From positions 1,154,501 to 1,218,500 of the forward strand of contig NZ_CP121694.1 in the NCBI RefSeq assembly GCF_035573695.1: a DNA stretch of 64,000 nt, written 5' to 3'. The notes beneath the pieces were generated by a model. It was not told the origin of the DNA, did no database searches, and saw only the letters and a list, made by a program, of their open reading frames with translations. Below, in pieces: positions 12,658 through 44,618 of the stretch. The stretch is from Metallumcola ferriviriculae. Lineage in GTDB: Bacteria; Bacillota; JADQBR01. The translations under genes and the position numbers were made by a program. Positions within the stretch are counted from its first letter, which is position 1. Each line of letters starts with the position of its first letter.

Positions 12658-13485
12658 GTGCAGAAGATGTGCCGAGTACTAGAGGTTTCTAGAAGCGGTT
12701 ATTATGCTTGGCTCAAACGACCAGAAAGTGACCGAAAACGTCGGGATAAATATTTGCTAAAAAAGATCCGTGAAATACACAAAGACTCTCGAGGTACTTA
12801 CGGCAGCCCCAGGATAACCAGGGTACTTCAAAAACAGGGCGTTAGATGTAGCCCAAAGCGTGTTGCCCGCCTCATGCGGGAAAATGGAATTGTCGCTAAA
12901 ACCAAAAGGAGATTCAAGGCTACGACTAATTCCAAACACAATTATCCTGTTGCCGGAAACTTACTCAACCAAGACTTCAATGTGGATAGGCCGAACAACG
13001 TCTGGGTTGCTGATATTACCTATATCCCTACAAACGAAGGATGGCTTTATCTTGCAACCATACAAGACCTGTTTAACCGTAAGATTGTTGGTTGGGCTAT
13101 GGATAAGACTATGACTCGAAAGCTAGTACTGGGTGCGCTAAGACAAGCACATCGTCGATATCGCCCTCAAGCAGGGTTAATCCATCATTCAGACAGGGGT
13201 AGTCAGTATGCCAGTTACGAATACCAACAAGCCCTTAAAGATTATCATATGGTACCTAGCATGAGCCGTAAGGGTAACTGCTATGATAATGCATGCATGG
13301 AATCATTCTTTGGTACACTCAAACAGGAATTAATCTATGGCATCCGCTTCAGAACAAGGGCTGAAGCTCGCCAAGCAATATTTGAATACATCGAAGTTTT
13401 TTACAACCGTAGCCGGCTACATTCCGCCCTTGGGTATATGTCACCAGTTGAATATGAGCAGTTGTTTTCACAAACTGCCGCGTAA
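12658..13485 (+). CDS. IS3-family OrfB transposase
   Basis: Catalytic subunit with HTH_21 ([10 protein letters not shown]) and the rve core: WVADITYIP (Asp1), [11 protein letters not shown] (Asp2), [17 protein letters not shown] (Glu), plus the C-terminal [16 protein letters not shown] block. The frame is open upstream of the first ATG through [17 protein letters not shown] back to the A6G slippery site in orfA. The working product is probably an OrfAB fusion made by -1 frameshifting. The frame is intact, so this copy may be active. Confidence 0.92.
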
Positions 13486-23364: not shown

Positions 23365-23578
23365 CCTTGAAGGATTGAGAATGGTATAGACTGGGAGAAT
23401 TACGGCCACAGGCAGTCGCTGGTTAGGGTAATGAAATTCCTGCAAAACCAAACATTTCAATATTACATAGTGTTTAACAAGTTGCGGTTGTCCGGGGAAG
23501 AAGATTTATTACTTTATGTATGCAAAACATCCTGTACAGATGTTGATCAGATATTGTACGCCAGTGGGAGGTCTGAAA

Positions 23579-24508
23579 ATGAAAGAAAAAACTTTTACTT
23601 TCCATGACAAAGAAGATGTAGAAATATTTGTGTATAAGTGGATGTCAGATAAACCAATCAAAGGTATCGTTCAAGTTGCCCACGGAATGGCAGAAACGGC
23701 ATCACGTTATCGATACTTTGCTGAAGAACTCACAAAACAAGGATTTTTAGTTTATGCAAATGATCACAGGGGGCACGGAAACACGGCCAAGGAGCACGAC
23801 AATTTAGGCTATTGTGGCGAAGACGGATTTAATAAAATGGTGGAGAATTTGTATGACCTAAATCAAATTATTTCCAAGGAACAGCCCCATTGCCCATTAT
23901 TCTTGTTTGGGCATAGCATGGGTTCCTTTTTGGTTCAAAAATATATCTTTACCTATCCGACAGATCAATTAGCCGGTGTGATATTATCCGGATCCAACGG
24001 CAAAAAGGCACCTCTTCTATTGAACGTAGCGGAAATGATAGCAAAAAGGCGTTTGAAGAAATTGGGGCCTAAACATAGGGATGAATTTCTAAATAGTCTT
24101 ATGTTTAGCGATTTTAACAAGAAATTTAGGCCAAACAAAACGCCGTTTGACTGGCTAAGTCGCAATGATGAAGAGGTACAAAAGTATGCGAACAACCCAC
24201 AATGCGGCTTTGTGTCGTCAACAGGATATTTCTATGATTTATTGCGGGCCCTTAAAGGCTTACATACCTATCAAAACATGTCACAAATAAGAAAAGAACT
24301 CCCAATATATATTTTTTCTGGAGACAAAGACCCAGTTGGGAACTTCGGAAAAGGAATTAAGAACCTGGTCTCTTCATATCATCGACACGGGCTACAGGAT
24401 GTTACCTACAAGCTATATCCCGAGGGAAGACACGAAATGCTCAACGAAACCAACAAAGACGAGGTAATTGAAGACACCTTAGCCTGGTTAAGAAAATATT
24501 GCGAATAA
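23579..24508 (+). CDS. Alpha/beta hydrolase, monoacylglycerol lipase/lysophospholipase-like
   Basis: 309-residue serine hydrolase (S33/Hydrolase_4 type) from ATG 23579 behind GGGAGG. The oxyanion region is VAHGMAETASRY; the nucleophile elbow is GHSMGS; the acid is in FSGDKDPVGN; the His is in PEGRHEML. It is cytosolic with no signal peptide. It likely cleaves acylglycerol or lysophospholipid esters. The last 110 codons are duplicated at 39648-39980 at about 95% nucleotide identity, 15.5 kb away on the same strand. Confidence 0.88.
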   Translation: MKEKTFTFHDKEDVEIFVYKWMSDKPIKGIVQVAHGMAETASRYRYFAEELTKQGFLVYANDHRGHGNTAKEHDNLGYCGEDGFNKMVENLYDLNQIISKEQPHCPLFLFGHSMGSFLVQKYIFTYPTDQLAGVILSGSNGKKAPLLLNVAEMIAKRRLKKLGPKHRDEFLNSLMFSDFNKKFRPNKTPFDWLSRNDEEVQKYANNPQCGFVSSTGYFYDLLRALKGLHTYQNMSQIRKELPIYIFSGDKDPVGNFGKGIKNLVSSYHRHGLQDVTYKLYPEGRHEMLNETNKDEVIEDTLAWLRKYCE

Positions 24509-24525
24509 GATGTGCTTTAATATTA
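24176..24525 (+). repeat. Direct repeat copy 1: 3' third of hydrolase gene
   Basis: Begins near TACAAAAGTATG and ends just past the stop codon (TGTGCTTTAAT). Matches 39649-39995 with roughly one difference per 20 bases by eye. Confidence 0.9.
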
Positions 24526-26849: not shown

Positions 26850-26890
26850 GGGATAAATGGTGTAAAACCACCATTTATCCCTTTTTGTTT
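26850..26890 (+). terminator. Terminator after the sigma-54 activator gene
   Basis: GGGATAAATGGTG pairs perfectly with CACCATTTATCCC around TAAAAC, followed by TTTTTGTTTTT. Confidence 0.92.
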
Positions 26891-26935: not shown

Positions 26936-26950
26936 TGGCATAATTTTTGC
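26936..26950 (+). promoter_or_regulatory. Sigma-54 promoter for leucine dehydrogenase/VOR operon
   Basis: TGGCATAATTTTTGC has the -24 GG and -12 GC elements with the required 10-base gap. It lies 142 bases before the leucine dehydrogenase start and just after the activator gene. Confidence 0.85.
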
Positions 26951-27091
26951 GACTAGTATTGTTAAGTATATTAAGCAATTTTCTTATCCTTTTGGTGATG
27001 AATAAGTTTTTATGTGGAGGTGAAGCAAAAAAATGACTTAATGTTAACAGTCGAGTGTTGAACCTTAGATTTCAAAAAGGAGATGTTCTCT

Positions 27092-28144
27092 ATGGAAATA
27101 TTTGAATGTTTAGAAAAATATGACTATGAACAGCTAGTTTACGCATATGACCAGTACACGGGGTTAAAAGCCATAATAGCCATTCATGATACTACCTTGG
27201 GGCCAGCGTTAGGTGGCACCAGAATGTGGCCGTATATTTCTGAAGAAGAAGCATTAGATGATGTACTACGATTATCCCGTGGGATGACTTATAAGGCGGC
27301 AGCAGCCGGATTAAACCTGGGTGGTGGAAAGGCTGTAATTATTGGCCATCCACAAAAGGATAAAAATGAAAAATTATTTAGGTCATATGCGCGTTATATT
27401 GACAGTCTTGGTGGTCGCTACATTACGGCTGAAGACGTAGGTACTTGTCAATCAGATATGAATATTATCAAACAAGAAACTAGGCATGTAGTTGGGGTCA
27501 CCAGGGATCCATCGACTTTTACTGCTTTTGGGGTATTACAGGGAATAAAGGCTGCAGTCAAAGAAGTATATGGTAGAGATTCGTTAGAAGGTCTTACCGT
27601 TGCTATACAAGGGCTTGGTAATGTAGGCTTTAAACTTTGTGATTACCTAAATAAAGAGGGTGCTGCGCTTGTTGTCACAGATATTAATCAGGCGGCAATA
27701 AAGAAAGCGGTTGCAGAGTTTGGAGCCAAGGCTGTCGAACCCCACAAAATATATGGTGTCAATTGTAATATATTTGCCCCTTGTGCTTTAGGGGCTGTGG
27801 TAAGCGATATTACTATTCCGAGTTTAAAGTGTGAAATCATCGCTGGTGCCGCAAATAATGTGCTTGAAAGTAATCATAATGGAGACTTTATTCAGCAGCT
27901 TGGTATTCTATATGTGCCTGATTACATTATAAACGCAGGCGGGGTAATTAATGTCGAAGAGGAGCTGATAGGAAACAACGAAAAACAGACATTGCAAAAA
28001 GTCGCTAAGATTTACGATACTACCCGGAAAGTCATTAATTTAGCAAAAACCCAAGGAATACCCACATATCGGGCGGCAGATTTGCTTGCGACAAAACGTA
28101 TCCAACAAGCCAAGCAGGGTCAAGGGGGAGACGTAGTTGGCTAA
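27092..28144 (+). CDS. Leucine/branched-chain amino acid dehydrogenase
   Basis: 350-residue Glu/Leu/Phe/Val dehydrogenase: oxidative deamination of leucine, valine or isoleucine to the 2-oxoacid with NAD+. [11 protein letters not shown] and [17 protein letters not shown] (catalytic Lys and glycine loop) form the substrate domain; [16 protein letters not shown] is the NAD-binding Rossmann motif; [11 protein letters not shown] is the family C-terminal block. The length fits leucine dehydrogenase (about 360). ATG 27092 is preferred over 27083 because AAGGAGA lies 8 bases ahead of it. It is the first gene of the sigma-54 operon; its oxoacid product is the natural substrate of the oxidoreductase encoded next. 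Confidence 0.92.
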
Positions 28145-28358
28145 AAAAGGTGTAATAATCCTATTTAAAGATAATTGTAAAGGCTGTGGTATATGCACTG
28201 TTTTTTGTCCTCAAAACCTTTTAACCCTAAGTGATGAATTAAATGTCCTGGGCTACCACCCGGTACAGGTGACAGATATGGAGAAGTGTACAGGTTGTGC
28301 GTTTTGTGCCAGGATGTGTCCGGATGTAGTGATTCAAGTGGAAAGGGTGAGTCGATGA
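28137..28358 (+). CDS. 2-oxoacid:ferredoxin oxidoreductase, delta (ferredoxin) subunit
   Basis: 73-residue polyferredoxin with two 4Fe-4S motifs, [12 protein letters not shown] and [12 protein letters not shown]. It is the electron-carrying subunit of the four-subunit ketoisovalerate (VOR) or 2-oxoglutarate (KOR) type enzymes. It starts at TTG 28137 inside the end of the dehydrogenase gene and its stop overlaps the next start (ATGA), so the subunits are translationally coupled. Confidence 0.92.
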
Positions 28359-29446
28359 CGCGCAAATTGATGAAAGGTAACGAGGCAATTGGGGAAGCAG
28401 CTATTGCCGCTGGATGCCGGTATTTCTTTGGGTACCCTATCACACCACAGTCCGAATTACCTGAATATCTAGCCCGGCGTTTACCGGAGGAGGGCGGGAT
28501 ATTTCTTCAGGCAGAAAGTGAAATCGGAGCTATCAATATGGTTTACGGTGCTGCAGGCGCTGGGGCGAGAGTAATGACGTCCTCTTCAAGTCCAGGCATT
28601 AGTCTCAAAATGGAGGGGATATCTTATATTGCTGCAGCAGAATTACCATGTGTTATCGTTAATATGATGCGCGGAGGCCCTGGTTTGGGGGGGATTCACC
28701 CTTCGCAAGCCGATTATTTTCAAGCGGTCAAAGGGGGTGGGCATGGAGATTATCGGATGATTGTACTGGCGCCTGCTTCTGTCCAGGAAATCGTTGATTT
28801 GACTAGATTAGCCTTTGAATTAGCTGATTGTTACCGTACCCCGGTGATGATTTTAGGAGATGGGCTGCTTGGGCAAATGATGGAAACGGTTGAGTTTAAT
28901 AAACAACCTGAAAATGTAGCACCTAAACCGTGGGTAACTAAAGGATGTCGTGGTCGAAATAAAAATATCATTAGCACACTTCACCTTGAACCTGCAAATC
29001 TTGAACGGCATAATTTAAGTCTCCAAGAAAAATATAAGAAAATAATAAGGAAAGAACAACGTGCTGAGCACTATCTAACCGATGATGCTGAGTTAGTCGT
29101 AGCAGCATTTGGAACAGCTGCAAGGATTGCCAAAGAGGCAGTCAATTTGGCCCGGGATCAAGGTATAAAAGCGGGATTATTTAGACCAATTAGTTTGTAT
29201 CCATTTCCGTCAATGTTATTAAAGAAGAATATACCTCATGCAAAAGCAATTTTAACGGTGGAGATGAATGCCGGTCAAATGGTAGACGATGTGAAGTTAT
29301 CAGTTGATGGAAAGGTAAAAGTTCACTTTTATGGCCGAATGGGAGGTATGCTACCAGACTCATTAAGCATATTAAAGCACCTTAAACGAATTGGGGGGTA
29401 TGAAAATGAAGACAGTCTTTCAGAGACCAAAAGCCTTAATGCCTGA
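28355..29446 (+). CDS. vorB: 2-oxoacid:ferredoxin oxidoreductase, alpha subunit (VorB-like)
   Basis: 363 residues from ATG 28355, which overlaps the ferredoxin stop. It has the pyrimidine-binding fold of the alpha subunit: GNEAIGEAAIAAGCRYFFGYPITPQSELPEYL at the N-terminus, SSSPGISLKMEGISY and GPGLGGIHPSQADYF, then the domain II/III region ending in FYGRMGGMLPD. The complex converts branched-chain 2-oxoacids plus CoA to acyl-CoA, CO2 and reduced ferredoxin. The leucine dehydrogenase partner favours ketoisovalerate over 2-oxoglutarate as substrate; sequence alone does not settle this. Confidence 0.9.
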   Translation: MTRKLMKGNEAIGEAAIAAGCRYFFGYPITPQSELPEYLARRLPEEGGIFLQAESEIGAINMVYGAAGAGARVMTSSSSPGISLKMEGISYIAAAELPCVIVNMMRGGPGLGGIHPSQADYFQAVKGGGHGDYRMIVLAPASVQEIVDLTRLAFELADCYRTPVMILGDGLLGQMMETVEFNKQPENVAPKPWVTKGCRGRNKNIISTLHLEPANLERHNLSLQEKYKKIIRKEQRAEHYLTDDAELVVAAFGTAARIAKEAVNLARDQGIKAGLFRPISLYPFPSMLLKKNIPHAKAILTVEMNAGQMVDDVKLSVDGKVKVHFYGRMGGMLPDSLSILKHLKRIGGYENEDSLSETKSLNA

Positions 29447-30152
29447 TAACTTTCATTACTGTTCTGGTTGTACCCATGGTTTAGTTCACCGTTTGATAGC
29501 AGAAACCATTGATGAATTAGATGTTAGAGAAAGTAGTGTCGGTGTTGCTTCTGTAGGATGCTCAGTATTAACTTATGAGTATTTTAATATGGACATGCAA
29601 CAGGCCTCTCATGGACGGGCACCGGCAGTAGCCACAGGTATAAAACGAGTTTCACCCGAAACTTTAGTGTTTACTTACCAGGGGGATGGAGACTTGGCTG
29701 CAATTGGTACTTCAGAAACAATCCATGCTGCCGCCAGAGGAGAAAATATTACCATAATATTCATAAATAATTCCTGTTTTGGCATGACCGGCGGGCAGAT
29801 GGCTCCCACTACTTTAGTAGGACAAAAAACAACAACCTCTCCCCAAGGCCGTAATGCAATGACTGACGGGTATCCGTTAAAAATCCCGGAAATGCTGGCT
29901 GCTATGGAGGGGGCTGCTTATATTAGTCGAGTGTCTGTTCACAACCCTAAAAGTGTAAAACAAGCAAAGAAAGCTATTACCAAGGCATTTACCACTCAGC
30001 TCCAGGGTTTAGGATTTTCTTTGGTGGAAGTACTTTCTACCTGCCCCACCAACTGGCGAAAAACTCCATTGGATTCATTGAAATGGTTGGAAGATAATAT
30101 GATTCCTAATTTCCCCTTGGGAGAATTCAAAGTAGACCAGGAGGTGTCGTAA
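29406..30152 (+). CDS. vorA: 2-oxoacid:ferredoxin oxidoreductase, beta (TPP) subunit
   Basis: 248 residues from ATG 29406, 7 bases after GGGGGG. It carries the thiamine diphosphate fold: HYCSGCTHGLVHRLI at the N-terminus, SHGRAPAVATGIKRV, the TPP/Mg motif TYQGDGDLAAIGTSETIHAA...NNSCFGMTGGQMAPTT, and the C-terminal VLSTCPTNWR. It pairs with the preceding alpha subunit, whose 3' end it overlaps by about 40 bases. The order ferredoxin-alpha-beta-gamma is typical for VOR/KOR of anaerobes. Confidence 0.9.
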   Translation: MKTVFQRPKALMPDNFHYCSGCTHGLVHRLIAETIDELDVRESSVGVASVGCSVLTYEYFNMDMQQASHGRAPAVATGIKRVSPETLVFTYQGDGDLAAIGTSETIHAAARGENITIIFINNSCFGMTGGQMAPTTLVGQKTTTSPQGRNAMTDGYPLKIPEMLAAMEGAAYISRVSVHNPKSVKQAKKAITKAFTTQLQGLGFSLVEVLSTCPTNWRKTPLDSLKWLEDNMIPNFPLGEFKVDQEVS

Positions 30153-30704
30153 ATGAAGAAAAAATTTGGCATAATAGTAGCCGGATTTGGCGGCCAAGGA
30201 GTATTATTTGTGGGGCAGTTACTAGCCTATGCCGGTATGCTGGAAGGTAAGCAGGTAGCGTGGGTCCCGTCATATGGGCCGGAAATGCGGGGGGGCACAG
30301 CTTATTGTGCCGTAACTATTGCAGATAGTGAAATTAGTTCTCCTTTGGTTGAATATCCTGACGCTTTAATAGCGTTTAATGGCCCTTCAGTAATAAAATT
30401 TGAGCCAATAATAGCTGAAGGAGGTTTATTATTGACCAATAGTTCCGTCATCAAGCAAGCACCCAAACGAAGTAGCATTCATGTATATTCTATTGAAGCC
30501 AACAGTTTTGCAAATAAGTTAGGAAATAGTAAGGTAAGTAACCTCATAGTGCTGGGTGCGTTAGTTAAGCTTTCTAACGTTGTTGCGATTAGTAGTATTT
30601 TGCAGGCACTCAAAGATGTGCTGCCGAAGCATCATCAAAATTTATTGAAACTTAACAAAGATGCTTTGGAAATGGGATTCCAGAACATTAATGTGTCTTA
30701 TTAG
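30153..30704 (+). CDS. vorC: 2-oxoacid:ferredoxin oxidoreductase, gamma subunit
   Basis: 183 residues. The pattern GFGGQGVLFVGQLLAYAG at the N-terminus, VPSYGPEMRGGTAYCAVTIAD and the VSNLIVLGALVKLSN block are those of the gamma (catalytic domain) subunit. It starts immediately after the beta subunit stop and completes the four-subunit enzyme. A 240-base gap with the second sigma-54 promoter follows. Confidence 0.9.
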   Translation: MKKKFGIIVAGFGGQGVLFVGQLLAYAGMLEGKQVAWVPSYGPEMRGGTAYCAVTIADSEISSPLVEYPDALIAFNGPSVIKFEPIIAEGGLLLTNSSVIKQAPKRSSIHVYSIEANSFANKLGNSKVSNLIVLGALVKLSNVVAISSILQALKDVLPKHHQNLLKLNKDALEMGFQNINVSY

Positions 30705-30835: not shown

Positions 30836-30850
30836 TGGCTTGATTTTTGC
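30836..30850 (+). promoter_or_regulatory. Sigma-54 promoter upstream of the M20-AOR gene block
   Basis: TGGCTTGATTTTTGC has GG and GC at the right 10-base gap. It is close in sequence to the 26936 site and 130 bases before the M20 gene start. Confidence 0.82.
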
Positions 30851-30979: not shown

Positions 30980-32077
30980 ATGGATAATATTTTAGTTGAT
31001 CTAACCAGTCAGCTAATTCGTTTTAAAACTACTACCAAAGATAATGTAAATATTGCAGCAGAATATTGTGCCAATTGGCTAAATCGAAACGAAGTGAAAG
31101 CGGAAATTTTAGAGAACCAGGGCCTAAAAATTGTTTTAGCTACTATTGGAGATAAAGGTCCAACAATTATACTAAACGGTCATTTAGATGTTGTGCCAGG
31201 ACAAACGAGTGATTTCTATCCACGGGTAATAGGTAACAAACTTTTTGGCCGCGGGAGTTACGATATGTTAGGTGCCAACGCTGCCTTGCTTCTGTTAATT
31301 TCTGAACTTTCTAAATTAACTTTAGGGTGTAAAGTAATTCTAACTTTAGTACCGGATGAAGAAGTAGGCGGTAAGCTGGGAACTGGTTTTTTAGTTCGCA
31401 AGGGTATACGTGGAGACATTGCAATTTGTGCTGAACCTACCAACCTTAATATTGCATTACAAGCTAAAGGTGTTTTGCAAGTAAATCTTGAAATTGAAGG
31501 CATTGCTGCCCACGGAAGTCGGCCATGGTTGGGCGAAAATGCTATTTTAAAGGGACTAAATGTTTATAAAAACATTGAAACATTAGATTTCCTGAAAGCA
31601 AGCAGCCAGTATTTTTTAAAGCCCTCCCTAAATTTAGCTAAGATACATGGTGGAGGGGTGGTTAATCAGGTTCCGGATAGTTGTAATCTAACATTAGACA
31701 TTCGATATTTACCTGGTCAGAATCCGCAACATATTTTAGAGAACATAAAAACGGAAACACCTCACACTAAAGTAACAGTAATTAGTAATGCTGCTCCGGT
31801 AAAAACAAATAAAAATAATATTTATCTATCGCAATTGAGAAAGGACGCAGAAACTATTCTTGGTCGACCTATTAAGTTTTTTGGCCAAGACGGGTCAGCT
31901 GATACGCGGTACTTTTTCGAAGTAGGAATTCCAGCTGTAGAGTTTGGTCCCTTAGGAGCTAACCATCATGGGCCGGATGAATATGTGGAAATTGATTCTT
32001 TGATAAGCTTTAAGGATATTTTAAAGCGGTTTGTCATGAATTTAAATAGAAAGGGTGATGAAAATGAAGCTCAATAA
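30980..32077 (+). CDS. M20-family metallohydrolase (ArgE/DapE-like deacylase)
   Basis: 365 residues from ATG 30980 behind AAAGGGTG. Metal ligands: LNGHLDVVPG (His/Asp), GRGSYDMLGANAALL (Asp), VPDEEVGGKLGT (Glu-Glu), ICAEPTN (Asp/Glu position), and C-terminal GANHHGPDEYVEID (His). The dimerisation lid domain is present (AAHGSRPWLGENAI). These zinc enzymes remove N-acyl groups or cleave dipeptides. The N-acylamino-acid-racemase-like gene in the same cluster makes an N-acyl amino acid a good substrate guess. Confidence 0.85.
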   Translation: MDNILVDLTSQLIRFKTTTKDNVNIAAEYCANWLNRNEVKAEILENQGLKIVLATIGDKGPTIILNGHLDVVPGQTSDFYPRVIGNKLFGRGSYDMLGANAALLLLISELSKLTLGCKVILTLVPDEEVGGKLGTGFLVRKGIRGDIAICAEPTNLNIALQAKGVLQVNLEIEGIAAHGSRPWLGENAILKGLNVYKNIETLDFLKASSQYFLKPSLNLAKIHGGGVVNQVPDSCNLTLDIRYLPGQNPQHILENIKTETPHTKVTVISNAAPVKTNKNNIYLSQLRKDAETILGRPIKFFGQDGSADTRYFFEVGIPAVEFGPLGANHHGPDEYVEIDSLISFKDILKRFVMNLNRKGDENEAQ

Positions 32078-32825
32078 TAAGGTTGCAGTTGTGACAGGAG
32101 CAGGTTCAGGTAATGGTAGGGGAATAGCATTGAGTTATTTGCGGGAAGGTGCTGCAGTCGTTGTAGCTGATATTAATGAGGATGGAGGTAAAGAGACCGT
32201 ATCACTAGCGCCTGAGGACAGCCGAGTAATTTCTATAAGAACGGACGTAACAAAAAAGGACGAAGTGGAAAATATGGTTGCTCAGACAATTAAGGAGTTT
32301 GGTAGAATCGATATTCTAGTTAATAACGCCGGCATCGTTTCTTTTACTCCGTTTTTAGAATTGTCTGAAGAAGAGTGGGATAGAGTCCATGATATCAACC
32401 TTAAAGGGCCTTTCTTATGTTCTCAGGTCGTAGCTAAAGAAATGTTAAAGCAAAATAATGGGGGCAGGATTATTAACATGACTTCAGTAGAAGCTCATGT
32501 AGTAGTTTCCAGCAGCGGCAACTGTCAACCTCATTATAACTCGTCCAAAGGCGGGTTAACCATGCTGACTAAAGCCCTTGCATCGGAATTGGCTTCTTAT
32601 GGTATTACAGTGAACAGTATCGCTCCGGGGCCGATTGAAACTCCGTTTACTGAAATGGGGTTGAAAAACCCGGCCATTAAAAAATGGATTTTAGAGCAAG
32701 TTCCGGTGGGAAGGGTGGGTCAGCCGCGTGACATTGCAAATGCAGCTATTTTTCTAGCCCTGGATGAATCTGATTTTATAACGGGTACTACATTGTTTGT
32801 GGACGGAGGGTGGACTGTAAAGTAA
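32064..32825 (+). CDS. Short-chain dehydrogenase/reductase
   Basis: 253-residue classical SDR: NAD(P)-binding TGAGSGNGRGIALSYL, NNAGIV, catalytic Ser in MTSVEAH, Tyr/Lys in HYNSSKGG, PGPIETPF, and a C-terminal ITGTTLFVDGGW. An Asp at the end of beta-2 (VVADINEDGG) suggests NAD rather than NADP. It begins inside the end of the M20 gene; ATG 32064 follows GGGTGATG, with 32058 as an alternative. The substrate is unknown; oxidation of a hydroxy- or amino-acid-derived alcohol fits the cluster. Confidence 0.88.
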   Translation: MKLNNKVAVVTGAGSGNGRGIALSYLREGAAVVVADINEDGGKETVSLAPEDSRVISIRTDVTKKDEVENMVAQTIKEFGRIDILVNNAGIVSFTPFLELSEEEWDRVHDINLKGPFLCSQVVAKEMLKQNNGGRIINMTSVEAHVVVSSSGNCQPHYNSSKGGLTMLTKALASELASYGITVNSIAPGPIETPFTEMGLKNPAIKKWILEQVPVGRVGQPRDIANAAIFLALDESDFITGTTLFVDGGWTVK

Positions 32826-32884
32826 TATCACCATGCCGCTAAGGTTCGAATTATTCAGAATATTAAATAATTGGAGGGAGACCA

Positions 32885-34429
32885 ATGAGTAACTTAACGT
32901 CTGAGAATAAAGCTGGATTAGAACATTCACCGCCGCAGCTAAAACGAGAGTTAAACCTTACTGGTGCCGTGGTTATGAGTGCCGGTTTGGTTATTGGTGT
33001 TGGTTTATTTACCGTTTCAACAAATGCAGTTGGCTTCTTGGGTCCTAGTCTGCTGTTGGGGAACTTAATTGCATTAGTGGTTAGTGTACTTACTTCACTG
33101 GTTTACGCAGAACTGGCGGCTGCTTGGCCTTTTTCAGGAGGAAGCTACGCTTACGCATATGAATCATGGGGTAAGTACGGGCCTTTTGCCGGTTTTATGA
33201 TGTCAATGACCATTATTGGTATATATTTTGCAGTTGGTGCTGAAGCCTTAGCATTTGCCAATTATTTTTTGAGTACCGTTGATTTTCTTGGGATATGGAA
33301 TGTTCTACAAGGGGGAGAAATTCCGTTTGGAACGGCCTCTGTTATTGCTTCTCTGCTCATTCTTGTATACACGGTAGTTAACTGGCGGGGTACTAAGGAA
33401 GTCGGTTTGTCACAAAAAGTTATAATGTTTTCAATGTGGGCAATGATGGCAATTTCTATTATTGTAGCTGCGTTTACTACAATAGATTTTAGTAACTATC
33501 ATCCGTTTATACCAACTTGGTTTGATCCAGGTATGTTTCCATTGGCTGCAACTTTGATTTGGTGGGCTTATGCCGGACAAGAAGTTATTGGGACAATGGG
33601 CGAGGAAATAGAACATCCCACCGTCAATATACCTCGTGCTTTGATATTAGTTCCCTTTGTTGTATTTGCCGTAACCACCACTATGCAATGGGCGATTGTT
33701 GGGATCATTCCCGATGTGCGCATCTTACAGGATGCTGGGGCACCATTCGCTCTTGCTCTTAAAGCAGCCGGCGTTGGTTCAATTATCTTCATTTTGTTTA
33801 TGCTGGCGGAATTTTTAGGCAACTTCTCAACAGTGAATCCAATTCTGATGGGAGGTTCGCGAGTCCTTTTTGCACTAGGCCGTGATGGGTACTTACCTCC
33901 CATAATCGGTAAACTTTCAAAACGTAGTGTGCCGGGACTAGCAGTTTGGATTTACGGTATAAGCGTAATAATTCTTGTTATTACCAAAGGATTACTCTAC
34001 CTTGCACAATTTACTGCATTTTTACTCCTATTTTTGTATGGGTTTATCGCGCTAACTGTAATTGTAGCCCGTTTCACGCGGCCCGAAGTGAATAGACCGT
34101 TTAAAACTCCACTTTTTCCACTTATTCCTCTATTAGTAATTGCATTTGCTGTATGGATGGTTCTTAGTCTGCCAGCAGAAGTTATTGTTTCAGCTTTTAT
34201 CTGGCTCGGGTCAACAACAGTATTTTTCCTGATTTGGATCAACCTTCCTTGGGGCAAAGAAGAACGTGAGAAATCAAAATACTTCAGAGTGGAATCCTCC
34301 CTACCCCCTGAACCAAATAAAGAAGAAAAAGAGAAGTTAGATCAAGAATTTCGCGGGTTTTCCATTAAACTGGGTGTAGTAATTTTTGTATGTCTAATCT
34401 TCTATGGAATAACTTATATTCTTGGATAA
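32885..34429 (+). CDS. APC-superfamily amino acid/amine permease
   Basis: 514-residue integral membrane protein with about 12 hydrophobic segments, first helix motif SAGLVIGVGLFTVS (the substrate-binding G-x-G break of APC transporters), and YAELAAAWPFSGGSYAYAYESWG at TM3. A hydrophilic C-terminal tail (VESSLPPEPNKEEKEKLDQEF) precedes a final helix. The start ATG 32885 follows TGGAGGGAG. The cluster suggests import of the amino acid or amine that the flanking enzymes degrade, similar to PuuP beside PuuA/PuuD in enterobacteria. Confidence 0.88.
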   Translation: MSNLTSENKAGLEHSPPQLKRELNLTGAVVMSAGLVIGVGLFTVSTNAVGFLGPSLLLGNLIALVVSVLTSLVYAELAAAWPFSGGSYAYAYESWGKYGPFAGFMMSMTIIGIYFAVGAEALAFANYFLSTVDFLGIWNVLQGGEIPFGTASVIASLLILVYTVVNWRGTKEVGLSQKVIMFSMWAMMAISIIVAAFTTIDFSNYHPFIPTWFDPGMFPLAATLIWWAYAGQEVIGTMGEEIEHPTVNIPRALILVPFVVFAVTTTMQWAIVGIIPDVRILQDAGAPFALALKAAGVGSIIFILFMLAEFLGNFSTVNPILMGGSRVLFALGRDGYLPPIIGKLSKRSVPGLAVWIYGISVIILVITKGLLYLAQFTAFLLLFLYGFIALTVIVARFTRPEVNRPFKTPLFPLIPLLVIAFAVWMVLSLPAEVIVSAFIWLGSTTVFFLIWINLPWGKEEREKSKYFRVESSLPPEPNKEEKEKLDQEFRGFSIKLGVVIFVCLIFYGITYILG

Positions 34430-34443
34430 GGAGTTGAAAGGTT

Positions 34444-35808
34444 ATGGATAAATTGGAATTTAATAAGTTTGAAGAACTTGTGAGAATAGGGGAAATAGAT
34501 ACAGTAATAGTCGCTGCTGTGGATATGCAGGGTAAACTTTTTGGCAAAAGAATTCCCGCTGGTTATTTTATCGAAGAGGCCAAAAATGGAATTCACACCT
34601 GCTCAATAAACATGATTTGGGATGTGGAATTAGACATTGGTGATAATTTCGAATTTTCCAACTGGGACACCGGCTTTCAAGACATGAAAGCTGTGCCTGA
34701 TTTATCTACGATGCGGCTGTGCCCATGGTGTGATAAGACGGTTTTGGTTTTGGCTGATCTTCATAATGCTGAGGGCGATACCATATTGGAAATTGCACCA
34801 CGTAATATACTAAAAAAACAGCTAGAAAAAGCGAAGCAAATGGGTTACCAGAGCTTTGCGGCCTCAGAAATTGAATTTTACATTTTCCGTGAAACTCCTG
34901 ATTCCATCAGAGAAAAGAGTTTTGCTAACTTAAAGCCTTTGTTTGGTTACCCAGACGACTACTCTATTTACCGCCTGACTGTTGACGATTGGTTTCTCAG
35001 TCAACTGGTTCGTAATTTAGAGGCAGCAGCCATACCCGTCGAAGCACTCAAAGGGGAATGGGGTATGGGACAAATAGAGTTAAACCTCAGGTATTCCGAA
35101 GCTTTGGAAATGGCGGATAGAACGGCAATTTATAAAAATGGCATTAAAGAAATGGCTGTCTTAAATGAGTTAATGGCAACCTTTATGGCTCGTCCTCATA
35201 CCAATGATTCGGGGAGCAGTTGTCATACTCACTTTAGCTTCTGGGATAAAGACGGTAAACAAAACTTATTCTGGGATCCGGAGGATGAATACCAACTTTC
35301 AACGGTTGGACGTCATTTTTTAGGGGGCATAATGGCTTTGGCCCCGGAGTTTATGATATTTTATGCACCTTACATCAATTCCTATAAAAGACTAAAAGAC
35401 ACCGCGGGGGCTCCAAACACACTTACATGGGGATTTGATAATCGCACTGTATCAATTCGATGTGCCGGTAAAGAAGGTGGACGGCGAATAGAGAATAGAA
35501 TTCCAGGAGCAGATGCAAATTTATACTTAGTTTTAGCTGCGATGCTTGCCTCGGGATTGTATGGAATTGAAGAAAAAATTGATATCCCAAACCCATATTT
35601 GAATAATGCTTACGCAGATCCTAACGTGAAGAAATTACCCTCTAACTTGGTTGAGGCAGTAAGCCTACTGGAAAAAAGCGAACTAGCGCCAAAACTAATG
35701 GGTGAAGCGGTTATTAATCATTATCTCACCGCAGCTAAGAATGAAATAAACCGGTTTTTCTCATCTGTTACAGACTGGGAGAGAAAGAAGTATTTCGAGT
35801 TTATCTAG
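34444..35808 (+). CDS. Glutamine-synthetase-family enzyme, probable gamma-glutamyl-amine ligase
   Basis: 454 residues. Catalytic domain patterns: FAASEIEFYIF (metal Glu), GEWGMGQIELNL, SGSSCHTHFSFWD (the His/Asn ATP-ammonia loop, altered from classic GlnA) and GRRIENRIPGADANLYL (Arg/Glu signature). It lacks the strict GlnA adenylylation and ammonia-site sequences, and resembles the GlnA3/PuuA-like group that glutamylates amines or amino acids using ATP. With the gamma-glutamyl hydrolase at 37762 and a permease this gives a glutamylation/deglutamylation pair. The start follows AAGGAGTTG. Confidence 0.85.
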   Translation: MDKLEFNKFEELVRIGEIDTVIVAAVDMQGKLFGKRIPAGYFIEEAKNGIHTCSINMIWDVELDIGDNFEFSNWDTGFQDMKAVPDLSTMRLCPWCDKTVLVLADLHNAEGDTILEIAPRNILKKQLEKAKQMGYQSFAASEIEFYIFRETPDSIREKSFANLKPLFGYPDDYSIYRLTVDDWFLSQLVRNLEAAAIPVEALKGEWGMGQIELNLRYSEALEMADRTAIYKNGIKEMAVLNELMATFMARPHTNDSGSSCHTHFSFWDKDGKQNLFWDPEDEYQLSTVGRHFLGGIMALAPEFMIFYAPYINSYKRLKDTAGAPNTLTWGFDNRTVSIRCAGKEGGRRIENRIPGADANLYLVLAAMLASGLYGIEEKIDIPNPYLNNAYADPNVKKLPSNLVEAVSLLEKSELAPKLMGEAVINHYLTAAKNEINRFFSSVTDWERKKYFEFI

Positions 35809-35819
35809 GAGGGGAAACC

Positions 35820-37703
35820 ATGGATTTATGCAGCAAAATCTTAAAAATTGACCTTAGCACAAAAGAAGTTACAATCGAAACTAAAGACGAAGAATTTATG
35901 CGTATGTATCTTGGCGGAGGGGCTTTAGGTGTTTATTATTTATTAACTGAAATGCCCCCTGGAGCAGACGCCTTAGGCACTGAAAATAGGTTGGTATTTT
36001 CGGCAAGTGTAGTTGCTGGAGCCCCGATATCGGGGCTCAGCCGCTATACGGTAACAGCCCGTTCTCCGCTAACTGGATTAATTGGAGACTCCCAAGCAGG
36101 GGGAGACTTTGCGGTTGAACTACGGTCAACCGGTTATGTTGCAGTTGTTATAAAAGGTAAATCTGAAAACCCCGTATATATTATAATAACTGATGAAGGT
36201 GTAGAAATACGGGATGCGTCAAACTTATGGGGGCTAGAGCCCGCCCAATGTCAAAAAAACATTAAAGAACAATTAAATGATGATAAAGTAGTGGTTGCTC
36301 AAATAGGTGTTGGTGGTGAAAAACTTGTTCGTTTTGCCTGCATTGTAAGTGAACTCACTCATTTCAATGGGCGTACCGGAATGGGTGCAGTAATGGGATC
36401 GAAGAACCTTAAAGCGGTAGTAGTTCGCGGCAGAAACCGCCCTTCGTTTGATAATTCAGAAGCAATCAACGCTATAGCTAAGATGGGTGTGCAGAAATCC
36501 AAAGTTAATGATGGAGTCCAATTTTTAAGAAAATTGGGAACAGCTGGGGCTGTGGCAATACAAAACAGTACCGGGGGTTTACCAAGTAAGAATTTTTCCA
36601 ATTGTCAGCTAGAAGGTGCTGAGAGAATTTCCGGTGAAGAACTTTTCAAGTCCTTTCCGGTAAAAAGTGAAAGTTGTTATCGATGCGCCATTGCCTGCAA
36701 AAAGAAGTGGCAAAACCAAAATGAGCATGAAATTAACCTTGAATACGGAGCGCCGGAATATGAAAGTTTAGCTTCTTTAGGGGCCTACACAGGAGTTATT
36801 GACCCACTTGCTGTCATTAAGGCTAATGAACTTTGTTCAAAATTCACTTTGGACACCATATCCACCGGGGCCATAGTAGCCATGGCTATGGAATGTTATG
36901 AAAAAGGGATATTAACAAACAAACAAACTAATGGGCTTTCTCTTAAATTCGGAGATAGTGATGCATTGATTGAAATTATCAATATGATTGCAAAACGCCA
37001 GGGGATAGGGGATGAATTGGCGGAAGGTACACAAAGGGCGGCGGCTTTGTGGGGGAAAGGTGCTGAAGACTGTGTGATTGCAGTTAAAGGACTTGATTTG
37101 CCAGCACATATGCCAAGGATTAAAAAGTCATTATCTTTAGCATATGCGATTAATCCCTTTGGAGCGGATCATATGTCCAGTGAACATGATGGTATTTATT
37201 CAGTAGGTTCTGGCGAAAGTTGGGATATTTTAGCAAGCATAGGACTTTATGGGAGAACTCCTATTGAAAAACTAAACTCTGATAAGACCCGGTTCTATTT
37301 GTTTACTCAAAGATTTTATAGTTTATTAGATACTCTTAATCTTTGTGCTTTTTGTTTTGCTCCGGGGTGGTTATATGCGCCGGCAGAGTTAGTTGAAGTT
37401 GTTAAGGCTGTTACCGGTTGGAACGTTACCCTGCATGAACTGATGTTAGCTGGGGAAAGGCGTATTAATATGCAGCGCGTCTTTAACTCGATACATGGTG
37501 CTTCTCCGGCAGACGATACATTACCCAAAAGATTATTTATGCCTTTAGAATCAGGCCCTAGCGAAGGATATTCAGTGGATGAAGATGAGTTCAATCAGGC
37601 TAAGGATCTTTATTATTCTATGGCTGGTTGGGATAAGAGCACCGGTTGGCCTACGCATTCAAAGTTAACTGAACTGTCGTTAGATTGGTTAATATCTGGT
37701 TAA
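35820..37703 (+). CDS. aor: Aldehyde:ferredoxin oxidoreductase (tungsten-type AOR)
   Basis: 627 residues, full family length. The N-terminal domain (ILKIDLSTKEVTIE, YLGGGALGVYYLL) and FNGRTGMGAVMGSKNLKAV form the bis-pterin-binding part. The 4Fe-4S cluster is bound by CYRCAIACKKKW plus Cys in LNLCAFCFAPGW. The enzyme oxidises aldehydes to acids with ferredoxin, or the reverse. It sits 11 bases after the glutamine-synthetase-like gene and in the same operon. In an anaerobe it could perform the aldehyde step that an NAD-linked dehydrogenase (PuuC) performs in the aerobic Puu pathway. No pterin or tungstate genes lie in the window. Confidence 0.92.
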   Translation: MDLCSKILKIDLSTKEVTIETKDEEFMRMYLGGGALGVYYLLTEMPPGADALGTENRLVFSASVVAGAPISGLSRYTVTARSPLTGLIGDSQAGGDFAVELRSTGYVAVVIKGKSENPVYIIITDEGVEIRDASNLWGLEPAQCQKNIKEQLNDDKVVVAQIGVGGEKLVRFACIVSELTHFNGRTGMGAVMGSKNLKAVVVRGRNRPSFDNSEAINAIAKMGVQKSKVNDGVQFLRKLGTAGAVAIQNSTGGLPSKNFSNCQLEGAERISGEELFKSFPVKSESCYRCAIACKKKWQNQNEHEINLEYGAPEYESLASLGAYTGVIDPLAVIKANELCSKFTLDTISTGAIVAMAMECYEKGILTNKQTNGLSLKFGDSDALIEIINMIAKRQGIGDELAEGTQRAAALWGKGAEDCVIAVKGLDLPAHMPRIKKSLSLAYAINPFGADHMSSEHDGIYSVGSGESWDILASIGLYGRTPIEKLNSDKTRFYLFTQRFYSLLDTLNLCAFCFAPGWLYAPAELVEVVKAVTGWNVTLHELMLAGERRINMQRVFNSIHGASPADDTLPKRLFMPLESGPSEGYSVDEDEFNQAKDLYYSMAGWDKSTGWPTHSKLTELSLDWLISG

Positions 37704-37761
37704 GTATTAATACTTGAGAGGGATAAACTAAAAATTTTTTGGCCTAACTGGGGGGATGTAG

Positions 37762-38496
37762 ATGAAACCAATTATAGGCATTTCATGTGGCATACAAAAT
37801 ATCAAATATTATCAAAATTGCCAAGAAAAAGATACCTGCTGGATATTACCAACTCATTATGTTAAAGCGGTAATCAGTGCAGGAGGCATCCCAATAATTT
37901 TACCTTATGTCCGCGAGAAAGAGGAAATTATTTATGCAATTAATGGCTTAATCATCAGTGGTGGAGGCGACATTTCCCCAGAAGTTTATTGTAAAGAAAG
38001 GCACCTTAAAACTTACGATTGCAACATAGAACGAGATACTTTTGAAATTGATTTGGTCAAATTGGCCATTGAATATAATATTCCTACTTTGGCAATCTGT
38101 AGAGGTATGCAAATTTTAAATGTTACATTGGGTGGAACTTTAAATCAGCATATTCCTGAACAGATGCCATCTACCGTTTGTCATTGGCAGAAAGACTCTG
38201 AGCAATCGGGAACACATCAAATAGATATTTTATCAGACAAACTAGCAAAAGCTATGCATGTTAATCCAGGTGAAAGTGTAAAGGTGAATTCTTTTCATCA
38301 TCAGTCAGTTGCCCGAATTGGTAGTAATTTGACCGTTGCCGCAAAATCAAAAGATGGTATTATTGAAGGCTTAGAAAATGAGCATCATGATTGGATGTTG
38401 GGAGTACAATGGCATCCAGAGTTGATAGGAAACGGTAATACTACTCAGAAACACTTATTTGAAACACTTATTGAACAAGCTAGTCAACAAAAATAG
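37762..38496 (+). CDS. Gamma-glutamyl hydrolase, class I glutamine amidotransferase (PuuD-like)
   Basis: 244 residues. Nucleophile Cys in AICRGMQILNV; oxyanion strand LIISGGGDISPEVY; catalytic His-Glu in GVQWHPEL; NSFHHQSV is a further family patch. This is the peptidase C26 type that hydrolyses gamma-glutamyl-GABA and related conjugates. The start ATG 37762 follows GGGGGGATG. Its companion glutamine-synthetase-like ligase is two genes upstream. Confidence 0.9.
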   Translation: MKPIIGISCGIQNIKYYQNCQEKDTCWILPTHYVKAVISAGGIPIILPYVREKEEIIYAINGLIISGGGDISPEVYCKERHLKTYDCNIERDTFEIDLVKLAIEYNIPTLAICRGMQILNVTLGGTLNQHIPEQMPSTVCHWQKDSEQSGTHQIDILSDKLAKAMHVNPGESVKVNSFHHQSVARIGSNLTVAAKSKDGIIEGLENEHHDWMLGVQWHPELIGNGNTTQKHLFETLIEQASQQK

Positions 38497-38517
38497 TTGT
38501 ACGAGGAGTGGGTTATA

Positions 38518-39636
38518 ATGTATATTTCGGATATTAGTATTTATATTCTGCAGTTACCCCTGACAAATCCGTTTCAAACAGGGTTTGGTAGAGTGGACAG
38601 TAAAAGAACCGTATTAATTAAGATGAGGACTAATAGCGGGCTTATTGGTTTCGGTGAAGCAGCTGCCTTTGAAGCCCCGCTTTATAATCATGAGACTATA
38701 GACACTTGCGTTTATATTATTGAAAAAATACTGGCTCCAGTACTTTTGGATAATAAAATTTGCGAAATAGAAGATTTAAACAAGTTGTTTAGAAAATTCA
38801 AAGGACATAATATAGCGAAATGCAGTTTGGAAATGGCCCTGTGGGATATAAAATCTCAAGAGGCTAATCTATCTTTAGCCCAGAAACTAGGGGGTATAAA
38901 AGACAAAATAGGTGTGGGAGAAAGCATCGGGCTAAAGACTTCAATTAAAGCTACATTAGAGGAAGTAGATGAACGATTAGACAGTGGTTTTCAAAGAATA
39001 AAATTAAAAATAACACCAGGTTGGGATATTCAAATTGTTGATGCAGTTAGGAATCATTTTGGGAATATACCGTTAATGGTAGACGCTAACTCCTCGTATT
39101 CTTTAAAAGAATTTCCAGTGTTAAAACAGTTAGATGAATATGATTTAATGATGATTGAACAGCCTTTAAATAGTGATGATCTTTGGGATCATGCCAAAAT
39201 TCAAAGAAAGTTGAATACGCCTATTTGTCTGGATGAAAGTATAAAAAGCATAGAACATGCCCGTAAAGCAATTGAAATGGGAAGTTGCAAAGTAATTAAT
39301 ATAAAGCCTAGCAGGGTAGGTGGTATTCTAGAAGCGAAAATAATTCATGACTTGTGTCAAGAAAATGACGTGCCGGTCTGGTGTGGTGGAATGCTTGAGA
39401 CGGGTATTGGTCGTGCTTTTTGTATCGCCCTGTCGTCATTACCCAACTTTAGGCTTCCGGGCGATATATCTCCCAGTAATTTTTTTTATGAGGCTGATGT
39501 ATTAGCAGACTCTTATCAAGTAGATAGTGAGGGGTTTATAAAAGTTAGCACCAATAAAGGTTTGGGATATGAAATAGAAACTGATATGATTGAAAGGTAT
39601 AAGGTTAGTCAAATAGATCTTACTACAAAGCTATAG
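38518..39636 (+). CDS. Enolase-superfamily N-acylamino-acid racemase/OSBS-like enzyme
   Basis: 372 residues from ATG 38518 behind GAGGAG. Catalytic residues typical of the MLE/NSAR-OSBS subgroup: Lys pair in IKLKITPG, Asp in MVDANSS, Glu in MIEQPL, Asp in CLDESI, Lys in INIKPSRVGG, and the marker WCGGMLETGIGRAF. The subgroup either makes o-succinylbenzoate in menaquinone synthesis or racemises N-acyl amino acids. No men genes are nearby, while an M20 deacylase and amino-acid catabolic genes are, which favours racemisation. The operon appears to end here. Confidence 0.85.
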   Translation: MYISDISIYILQLPLTNPFQTGFGRVDSKRTVLIKMRTNSGLIGFGEAAAFEAPLYNHETIDTCVYIIEKILAPVLLDNKICEIEDLNKLFRKFKGHNIAKCSLEMALWDIKSQEANLSLAQKLGGIKDKIGVGESIGLKTSIKATLEEVDERLDSGFQRIKLKITPGWDIQIVDAVRNHFGNIPLMVDANSSYSLKEFPVLKQLDEYDLMMIEQPLNSDDLWDHAKIQRKLNTPICLDESIKSIEHARKAIEMGSCKVINIKPSRVGGILEAKIIHDLCQENDVPVWCGGMLETGIGRAFCIALSSLPNFRLPGDISPSNFFYEADVLADSYQVDSEGFIKVSTNKGLGYEIETDMIERYKVSQIDLTTKL

Positions 39637-39647
39637 AAATGAACAAG

Positions 39648-39980
39648 CTACAAAAGTATGTAAACAACTCACAATGTGGATTTGTGTCGTCAACAGGATA
39701 TTTCTATGATTTATTGCGGGCCCTTAAAGGCTTACATACCTATCAAAACATGTCACAAATAAGACAAGAACTCCCTATATATATTTTTTCTGGAGACAAA
39801 GACCCTGTTGGGAACTTCGGAAAAGGAATCAAAAACCTGGTCTCTTCATATCATCAACACGGGCTGCAGGATGTTACCTACAAGCTATATCCCGAGGGAA
39901 GACACGAAATGCTGAACGAAACCAACAAAGACGAGGTAATTGAAGACACCTTAGCCTGGTTAAGAAAACATTGCGAATAA
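39648..39980 (+). pseudogene. Truncated duplicate of the alpha/beta hydrolase C-terminus
   Basis: Encodes the last ~110 residues of the hydrolase at 23579-24508 (YVNNSQCGFVSSTGYFYDLL to the terminal LRKHCE) with the acid and His but no nucleophile. It lacks the N-terminal two thirds, so it cannot be an active enzyme. It starts right after the racemase-like gene, where a short frame MNKLQK precedes the duplicated part. It is the second arm of a direct repeat that brackets the 24.5-39.6 kb catabolic block. Confidence 0.88.
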
Positions 39981-39995
39981 ACTGTGCTTTAATTA
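39649..39995 (+). repeat. Direct repeat copy 2: 3' third of hydrolase gene
   Basis: Nearly identical to 24176-24525; both end with TGTGCTTTAAT. Copy 1 is the full gene; copy 2 is the duplicate. Confidence 0.9.
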
Positions 39996-43237: not shown

Positions 43238-44618
43238 TGCAATAAAAAAGATTTCACCCCATCCTTGTTGAATATCTTTAGTGACCAAACCAAAATTATC
43301 CACAAGGTAGGTGAAATCACTAATGTATATTCGCCAAGAATGCTTATTATCCTTTGAAGAAATTTTAAATCTTCAGCCCCAAACAAAGTTGGAATTGGTT
43401 TTGTCACAAATTGACCTAAGTGATTTTGAAATAGCCTTTAAGAGAAGTAGGTTTGGTCCCAAAGGCTATGACCCAACACCAATGCTATATGCTTTAATTG
43501 CTGCGCAGCTAGAGCAAATAAGAACTGTTAAAGCTTTAGTGCAAAGGTTAAAGCAAGACCCTGTTTTTCGTTACTGCTGCTGTTTTGAAGTATGTGGCCA
43601 GGTACCTTCAGAGGCCACATTCAGCCGGTTTCTAACTAAGATTTCAGAAAGTGAGGATCTGCAAAAGCTATTTCATAAATTAGTTATCCGCGCAAAGGAA
43701 CTGAATATTATCGACGGTGAAACTGTAGCCATTGATTCAACCAAAATGGATGCTTTTGAGAGCCCTAAACCTCATAGTAAACTTACGGATAACGGTTTAA
43801 CGCCTAACTGGGGCGCCAAGCGAGATACAAACGGCAATCAAGTAAAATGGTTTGGCTGGAAACTTCATATCCTGAGTGATACCAAAAGTGAGCTGCCACT
43901 AGAAATATCCGTTACTCCGGCAAACGTATATGACGGAACTGTTGCCTTGCCGCTGATTGAAAAATTATTTGAGAGTTTTGGAGACCTCTTTAAACCCCGA
44001 TACTATGCCATGGACTCTGGATATGACTTTAATTACATCTATGATGCTATAGTAAATGACTATCAGGCTAAACCAGTTATAGCTTATAATCCACGAGGAA
44101 GCAAAAGCGCCCCCGAAGGGTTAGATAATGATTTGCAACCCATTTGTTCCGCAGGCTATAAGATGGTTTACTGGGGTACAGATGGTGACTATATCAAACT
44201 AAGATGTCCTCATGTATGCGGGAAAGTCGATTGTGTCCACGGATCTAACTGGTGTTCCAACTCTAACTACGGTTATGTTAGAAAGGTCAACTATAAAAAG
44301 GAACCCAGGTTTTATAGCTATCCGTTCAGAGGTACAGAAAAATGGCAAAGCATCTACAATCAAAGAACAGCAGTTGAACGATGTAACAGTAGACTTAAAG
44401 AATATCTCAATCTAGGAAATATCAGGGCTAAAGGGATTAAAAAAGCTCTAACCCACTGCCTCTTAAACTCAATTGCTTTAGTTGCTGGGACAATAGCAGC
44501 AAACTCAGGCCAAAGCAAACTAAAAGTTGCTTAGCACTACCTGTGGATAATTCAGTACTTTAAAAAAGAAAATATTTTAGTTATCCACAGATTAAAAGTG
44601 GGTTTAGTATTTATTGCA
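43238..44618 (+). mobile_element. IS5/IS1182-like insertion sequence, copy 2 (tentative ends)
   Basis: One transposase gene. Possible imperfect ends: TGCAATAAA...CACCC at 43238-43260 and its inverse (GTGGG...TTTATTGCA) ending 44618. The leader shares TTCACCCC, GAATATCTTTAGTGAC, AAACC and TGAAATCACT with copy 1. CTGTGGATAA (44541) and TTATCCACAG (44581) form an inverted repeat after the gene. It separates the Mn riboswitch from the exchanger gene. Confidence 0.75.
43323..44534 (+). CDS. IS5/IS1182-like DDE transposase, copy 2
   Basis: 403 residues from ATG 43323 (MYIRQECLLSFEE), which aligns with the start of copy 1 (MYILQETLFSLEE); GTG 43311 would add four residues. It has the DUF772-type N-terminal half and a DDE core: VAIDSTKMDAF (Asp1), AMDSGYDFNYI (Asp2), RTAVERCNSRLKEYLNL (Glu). 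Overall similarity to the 1815-3023 transposase is clear but far from identical, so these are two related elements and not a recent duplication. Confidence 0.92.
   Translation: MYIRQECLLSFEEILNLQPQTKLELVLSQIDLSDFEIAFKRSRFGPKGYDPTPMLYALIAAQLEQIRTVKALVQRLKQDPVFRYCCCFEVCGQVPSEATFSRFLTKISESEDLQKLFHKLVIRAKELNIIDGETVAIDSTKMDAFESPKPHSKLTDNGLTPNWGAKRDTNGNQVKWFGWKLHILSDTKSELPLEISVTPANVYDGTVALPLIEKLFESFGDLFKPRYYAMDSGYDFNYIYDAIVNDYQAKPVIAYNPRGSKSAPEGLDNDLQPICSAGYKMVYWGTDGDYIKLRCPHVCGKVDCVHGSNWCSNSNYGYVRKVNYKKEPRFYSYPFRGTEKWQSIYNQRTAVERCNSRLKEYLNLGNIRAKGIKKALTHCLLNSIALVAGTIAANSGQSKLKVA

Follow-up and report, generated by a model that had tools for sequence, protein, structure and literature searches.

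A candidate anaerobic amino alcohol operon of Metallumcola ferriviriculae with an aldehyde:ferredoxin oxidoreductase in the aldehyde dehydrogenase position

In a 64,000-nucleotide stretch of the Metallumcola ferriviriculae genome (NZ_CP121694.1, positions 1,154,501 to 1,218,500, forward strand; hereafter the window), an operon places a tungsten/molybdenum aldehyde:ferredoxin oxidoreductase (AOR) directly behind a glutamine synthetase (GS)-like gamma-glutamyl-amine ligase, in the slot that an NAD-type aldehyde dehydrogenase (ALDH) occupies in the operons of its closest relatives. We propose that the operon serves anaerobic catabolism of an amino alcohol via N-gamma-glutamyl intermediates, with ferredoxin-linked oxidations, and put the probability of this reading at about 0.6. 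An earlier sequence-only reading of positions 30980–39636 had suggested a Puu-type polyamine pathway with the AOR in the place of the aldehyde dehydrogenase PuuC. The replacement of the aldehyde step is borne out below, but the polyamine frame is not: the ligase falls outside PuuA, and the triad of short-chain dehydrogenase/reductase (SDR), ligase and ALDH is that of amino alcohol (GlnA4/IpuC-like) pathways.

Operon layout

The M20, SDR, APC permease, ligase, AOR, C26 and MenC/NSAR genes lie head to tail on the + strand with short gaps. Pfam and NCBIfam profile scans agreed on the families of the operon proteins, and the permease, GS-like ligase, AOR and gamma-glutamyl hydrolase that the sequence-only reading had grouped in one operon are all present on this strand. 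Its interval started correctly, position 30980 being the ATG of the M20 gene, but left out both the sigma-54 control and a block encoding a leucine dehydrogenase (LeuDH) and a 2-oxoacid:ferredoxin oxidoreductase (Vor). The full extent of the operon thus exceeds 30980–39636, since the sigma-54 activator (24713–26821) and the LeuDH-VorB-VorA-VorC block (27083–30704) belong to it too. The features, with the evidence for each, are as follows.

24713–26821, +, sigma-54-dependent transcriptional activator with PAS and AAA domains (Sigma54_activat, 228 bits)
26936–26950, +, candidate sigma-54 promoter (-24/-12) TGGCATAATTTTTGC upstream of LeuDH (TGGC-N7-TTGC pattern)
27083–28144, +, amino acid dehydrogenase of the leucine dehydrogenase type (leucine dehydrogenases are its nearest solved structures)
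28286–29446, +, VorB, alpha subunit of 2-oxoacid:ferredoxin oxidoreductase (NF005507 VorB, 558 bits, cut-off 399)
29391–30152, +, VorA, thiamine pyrophosphate-binding beta subunit of the same enzyme (position and sequence; matches VorA-position genes of other 2-oxoacid:ferredoxin oxidoreductase operons)
30153–30704, +, VorC, gamma subunit (position and sequence; matches the VorC-position gene of another such operon)
30836–30850, +, candidate sigma-54 promoter (-24/-12) TGGCTTGATTTTTGC upstream of M20 (TGGC-N7-TTGC pattern)
30980–32077, +, M20 amidohydrolase (ArgE/DapE type), candidate gamma-glutamyl-amino acid hydrolase (Pfam M20)
32055–32825, +, SDR dehydrogenase (NAD type), candidate gamma-glutamyl-amino alcohol dehydrogenase (Pfam, motifs)
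32885–34429, +, APC-family amino acid/amine permease (AA_permease_2, 130 bits)
34444–35808, +, GS-like gamma-glutamyl-amine ligase (GlnA4/IpuC-like), not GlnA (Gln-synt_C, 335 bits)
35820–37703, +, AOR-type tungsten/molybdenum aldehyde:ferredoxin oxidoreductase (AFOR_N, 236 bits; AFOR_C, 383 bits)
37762–38496, +, class-I amidotransferase-like C26 (PuuD-type) hydrolase, candidate gamma-glutamyl hydrolase (Peptidase_C26, 207 bits)
38518 (or 38497)–39636, +, enolase-superfamily N-acylamino acid racemase/MenC family member (TIGR01928, 363 bits)
39646–39994, +, 95% identical repeat of the 3'-terminal part of a lipase-like gene (23516–24508), marking one border of a 15.5-kb segment that was duplicated or inserted

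Identity of the ligase

Residues and profile scores led us to reject an ordinary GlnA, the outcome that the sequence-only reading had named as fatal to its proposal. In an alignment with E. coli GlnA, E327 is replaced with Gly and S53 with Ile, and position 50 is occupied by Glu, in a region where the alignment is loose and uncertain; in GlnA4 and PauA7 it is E327 and D50 that are missing (PMC6529630). The metal, glutamate and ATP residues E129, E131, E212, E220, H269, R321, R339, R344, E357 and R359 are all kept. Loss of E327 and S53 with retention of the binding residues supports a GlnA4-like role over that of GlnA, and three further GS enzymes encoded in this genome retain E327, D50 and S53. 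The ligase scored 245 bits with the GlnA model TIGR00653 (cut-off 429) and 202 bits with the gamma-glutamylputrescine synthetase model NF045547 (cut-off 650). Its best solved relatives were 11zs (368 bits) and 5dm3 (332 bits), all others scoring at most 174 bits. A maximum-likelihood tree, built without GlnA4 itself, joined the window ligase to Brevibacillus and Paenibacillus enzymes with support of 100/99, followed by the enzyme of a DeMMO metagenome-assembled genome (95/94). The wider clade includes IpuC and others (98/95) and leaves PuuA and true GS outside, while the Thermomicrobium and Salipiger ligases fall on a branch separate from the window ligase. By sequence, then, the enzyme is of the gamma-glutamyl-amine type (GlnA4/IpuC-like).

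An AOR in the aldehyde dehydrogenase slot

The AOR gene starts 11 bases after the ligase gene. The encoded protein aligns over its full length with Pyrococcus furiosus AOR (1aor, 371 bits) and keeps the CxxCxxxC motif (at residue 286), the fourth cluster Cys and the catalytic Glu and His, which we take to correspond to E313 and H448 of the P. furiosus enzyme. The genome, a complete single contig, encodes eight AOR-family genes, and a search of it for the ALDH family (PF00171) matched only ProA, beside ProB; no PuuC-type ALDH was found. Because ProA is the only ALDH-family protein, the AOR appears to be the natural aldehyde enzyme of the operon.

The pairing of AOR with ligase is not common in anaerobes. 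Among 399 genomes sampled from the phylum, 48 carry AORs of the window clade, a common group, and 5 carry the ligase (E <= 1e-90); a repeat draw added nothing, and searches of the class and the family found only three genomes each. A GS-like gene was absent from all 17 additional neighbourhoods retrieved for the nearest AORs. A FastTree tree placed the window AOR beside AORs of a small separate phylum that also carries the ligase; in a careful tree the two were united in 0% of bootstrap trees. As they are not sisters, AOR and ligase were probably brought together on more than one occasion.

Related operons in other genomes

The closest relatives of the ligase, at 63–65% identity, are found in Brevibacillus and Paenibacillus, for which 12 loci (L005–L018) were compared. 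The SDR beside the ligase is 66–72% identical to the window SDR, and the M20 protein encoded directly upstream of the SDR-ligase pair is 52–57% identical to the window M20. Each gene was called in 11 of the 12 loci, the remaining copies being masked by overlapping reverse open reading frames in the simple gene calls. The gene after the ligase encodes an NAD-type ALDH in all 12, with a gap of 12–73 bases, and is followed in all 12 by an APC permease. The AOR thus stands exactly in the ALDH slot of its relatives. We found no description of this M20-SDR-ligase-ALDH-APC operon.

In Paenibacillus sp. MZ04-78.2 (L010, L141), the module lies downstream of PaaX and PaaABC, and is followed by genes for a HisC-like aminotransferase, an E1alpha-E1beta-E2-E3 2-oxoacid dehydrogenase complex, PaaG, thiolases and hydratases. 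The cluster apparently encodes a route from an amino acid via the 2-oxoacid to an acyl-CoA that leads to phenylacetyl-CoA chemistry, which makes phenylalaninol a plausible substrate there. By analogy, its aminotransferase and dehydrogenase complex are apparently the aerobic counterpart of LeuDH and Vor.

The order ligase-SDR-ALDH is the rule in many genomes of a different class of the same phylum and occurs also in Allomeiothermus, Thermomicrobium has ligase-SDR-ethanolamine permease, and more distant ligase relatives occur with serine hydroxymethyltransferase and serine lyase. The ligase is present in all seven genomes of the small separate phylum, three of which (G544, G650, G651) show the order ligase-SDR-GlnA-AOR, with an internal stop in the G650 ligase. 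In three others (L144, L145, L146) a methylase gene is inserted and no AOR is in view; this 1038-amino-acid gene between SDR and GlnA is Eco57I/PglX-like and unrelated.

Ligase relatives (44%) in family f12 that are linked to bacterial microcompartments (L025, L027, L028) adjoin an octopine-dehydrogenase-like gene and genes like PduP, PduL and PduS; gamma-glutamylation may here be part of a microcompartment pathway. We rejected these loci as instances of the window pathway: the octopine-dehydrogenase-like gene and the PduP-like ALDH mark another one.

Probable sigma-54 control and the edges of the segment

The TGGC-N7-TTGC pattern occurs only twice on both strands of the whole window, at 26936 and 30836, each time on the right strand. 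By our own estimate from base composition, about one such site is expected per 64 kb, so that the position of the sites, rather than their number, is the argument for sigma-54 control. A stem resembling a terminator lies at 26850–26881, 3' of the activator gene. In 11 Brevibacillus loci a regulator 47–53% identical to the window activator adjoins the M20-SDR-ligase genes. A relaxed form of the pattern finds comparable -24/-12-like sites ahead of M20 in 11 of the 12 Brevibacillus/Paenibacillus loci, the exception being the Paenibacillus locus, which lacks the regulator as well. The activator is therefore the likely regulator of both transcription units, LeuDH-Vor and M20 to NSAR.

The 15.5-kb segment holding regulator and operon sits between the intact lipase-like gene and the copy of its 3' tail, which form a direct repeat of 345 bp, about 95% identical (24174–24520 and 39646–39994). 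This flanking repeat suggests that the whole regulator-operon module was inserted or duplicated.

Proposed pathway and substrate

The reactions and substrate that we infer are as follows. The permease would import the amino alcohol, whose amino group the ligase would cap with glutamate at the cost of ATP. The SDR would oxidize the alcohol to the gamma-glutamyl aldehyde, and the AOR would convert the aldehyde to the gamma-glutamyl amino acid with reduction of ferredoxin; the cap would keep the alpha-amino aldehyde from reacting. The NSAR-family enzyme would bring the two enantiomers (D and L) of the N-acyl amino acid into balance, and the M20 hydrolase, the C26 hydrolase or both would free glutamate and the amino acid. 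LeuDH would then form the 2-oxoacid, and Vor the acyl-CoA and more reduced ferredoxin, with both units under control of the sigma-54 activator.

Because the gene set is that of the GlnA4 cluster with AOR for ALDH, we assign the alcohol oxidation to the SDR and take an amino alcohol, rather than a polyamine, as the substrate type. The suggestion of the sequence-only reading that the SDR performs the first oxidation is accordingly likely, as proposed for the GlnA4 cluster. The SDR carries the motifs TGxxxGxG, NNAG and YxxxK and an Asp after beta-2. The C26 hydrolase matches PuuD (6vtv) with 92 bits and keeps the Cys and the His-Glu pair. N-acylamino acid racemases are among the best solved relatives of the NSAR/MenC-family protein (about 313 bits), in which the motifs KxK, DxN, EQP and DE preserve the catalytic Lys pair and the metal ligands; such a gene fits D-to-L conversion of N-acyl amino acids.

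A branched or hydrophobic amino acid is the expected product, since among solved chains LeuDH matches true leucine dehydrogenases best (470 bits; phenylalanine dehydrogenase reaches about 199) and VorB passes the VOR model. Leucinol, valinol, phenylalaninol or another hydrophobic amino alcohol may accordingly be the substrate; we give this slightly less than even odds. More doubtful is the complete scheme, in which an anaerobe would degrade hydrophobic amino alcohols by a ferredoxin-linked pathway and a single gamma-glutamyl cap, attached by the ligase, would stay in place through the SDR and AOR oxidations and NSAR-type stereo-inversion until M20/C26 release.

Alternative explanations

Several observations weigh against the amino alcohol reading. 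The argument is built from sequence. LeuDH and Vor are assigned to the unit by promoter and position, a weak point; they form no part of the Brevibacillus operons, which also lack the C26 and NSAR genes, and the Paenibacillus parallel to them is a single locus. The window permease, about 23% identical to that of the Brevibacillus operon, is not its ortholog. MenC-family membership and motifs do not separate a racemase from o-succinylbenzoate synthase (MenC). AORs have a broad aldehyde range, those of the window clade occur in many unrelated gene contexts, and the 0% bootstrap value led us to drop the idea of a dedicated ligase-associated AOR subfamily.

One alternative is an AOR that serves the LeuDH-Vor branch, clearing by-product aldehydes of 2-oxoacid:ferredoxin oxidoreductases during branched-chain amino acid oxidation, while ligase, SDR and hydrolase do something else. 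AORs are known to remove aldehydes when peptides and amino acids are oxidised (PMC10816221); LeuDH and Vor share the sigma-54 regulon, and AOR lies beside Vor genes at L112 and L118, in other genomes. We nevertheless consider this explanation unlikely: the AOR lies inside the ligase unit, at the ALDH slot, and outside the Vor unit, the small phylum has ligase-SDR-GlnA-AOR without Vor nearby, and the SDR would be left without a partner for its aldehyde in a genome lacking ALDH.

Somewhat less likely again is the ethanolamine pathway proper, in which ethanolamine would pass through gamma-glutamylglycine to give glycine, the route put forward for GlnA4. The gene set is the same as in the Streptomyces cluster, and distant ligase relatives adjoin the ethanolamine permease or the serine hydroxymethyltransferase and serine lyase genes. 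LeuDH, Vor and the racemase, however, would be unneeded for glycine, the closest clade includes the Paenibacillus operon leading to phenylacetyl-CoA genes, and the window ligase branches apart from the Thermomicrobium and Salipiger enzymes.

A polyamine route of the Puu type, in which AOR would act as PuuC and for which the PuuD-type hydrolase and the permease would speak, was rejected as very improbable on ligase phylogeny and gene set: the ligase scores 202 bits against the cut-off of 650, the SDR acts on alcohols rather than amines, and the operon holds no PuuB-type amine oxidase. The absence of O2-dependent PuuB noted in the sequence-only reading thus holds for the operon, which is where it was checked.

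Implications

If the amino alcohol reading is correct, gamma-glutamyl aldehydes would be a physiological substrate type for an AOR, an enzyme family in which functions have often gone unassigned. It would also describe an oxygen-independent gamma-glutamylation strategy, built by swapping the NAD-linked aldehyde step for a ferredoxin-linked enzyme, with the 2-oxoacid dehydrogenase complex possibly swapped in the same way. The operon further suggests gamma-glutamyl amino acids as possible substrates of NSAR-family enzymes, and draws attention to amino alcohols, whose use by anaerobes has received little study.

Other features of the window

Positions 3341–9585 encode a GTPase-associated system, composed of a metallophosphoesterase with GAAD adaptor, a GASH protein, DO-GTPase2, DO-GTPase1 and a GAP1-N1 protein, which by sequence resembles predicted conflict or defence systems. 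As read from translations, three tyrosine-recombinase-like genes lie in a row at 15727–18941, transposase-like genes occur at 1815–3023, 10141–12008, 12658–13485 and 43311–44534, making the stretch rich in mobile elements, and 49254–58550 encodes a surface protein of 3098 amino acids with repeated domains and an S-layer-like C-terminus.

Comparison with known systems

A literature search, with subscription papers mostly outside its scope, found no relevant paper joining AOR with gamma-glutamylputrescine or with GS-like amino alcohol catabolism, in keeping with the sequence-only reading, which knew of no description of the combination. Among the closest described systems is the ethanolamine cluster of Streptomyces coelicolor, which comprises SDR, ALDH, glnA4, transporter and glutamine amidotransferase genes and for which the order ligase, dehydrogenase, aldehyde dehydrogenase, hydrolase was proposed (PMC6529630). 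The window operon shares with it the SDR, an aldehyde step, a GS-like ligase without E327, a transporter and a class-I amidotransferase-type hydrolase; it differs in having AOR instead of NAD-type ALDH, in its regulator, and in its LeuDH, Vor, M20 and NSAR genes, which are unreported there.

The Brevibacillus/Paenibacillus operon has orthologous M20, SDR and ligase genes (52–72% identity) in the same order and, in Brevibacillus, the sigma-54 activator and promoter. It has ALDH for AOR and an unrelated permease, and its operon is without C26, NSAR, LeuDH and Vor. The isopropylamine (Ipu) cluster on pTC1 of Paenarthrobacter (PMC6776027) likewise combines a GS-like ligase, SDR, ALDH and amidotransferases, with alanine dehydrogenase nearby. 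In contrast to the window system it is aerobic and depends on a P450 for production of the amino alcohol, and its ligase is 39% identical to the window ligase. The E. coli Puu putrescine pathway shares the gamma-glutamyl cap, an aldehyde oxidation and a C26 hydrolase, but its PuuA lies on a different branch, and its PuuB oxidase (by the operon-level check) and PuuC ALDH are lacking in the window system. Finally, the window AOR has the full length and the cluster and catalytic residues of AORs from archaea and bacteria (P. furiosus 1aor and its relatives), and differs from them in its operon partner, a gamma-glutamyl ligase.

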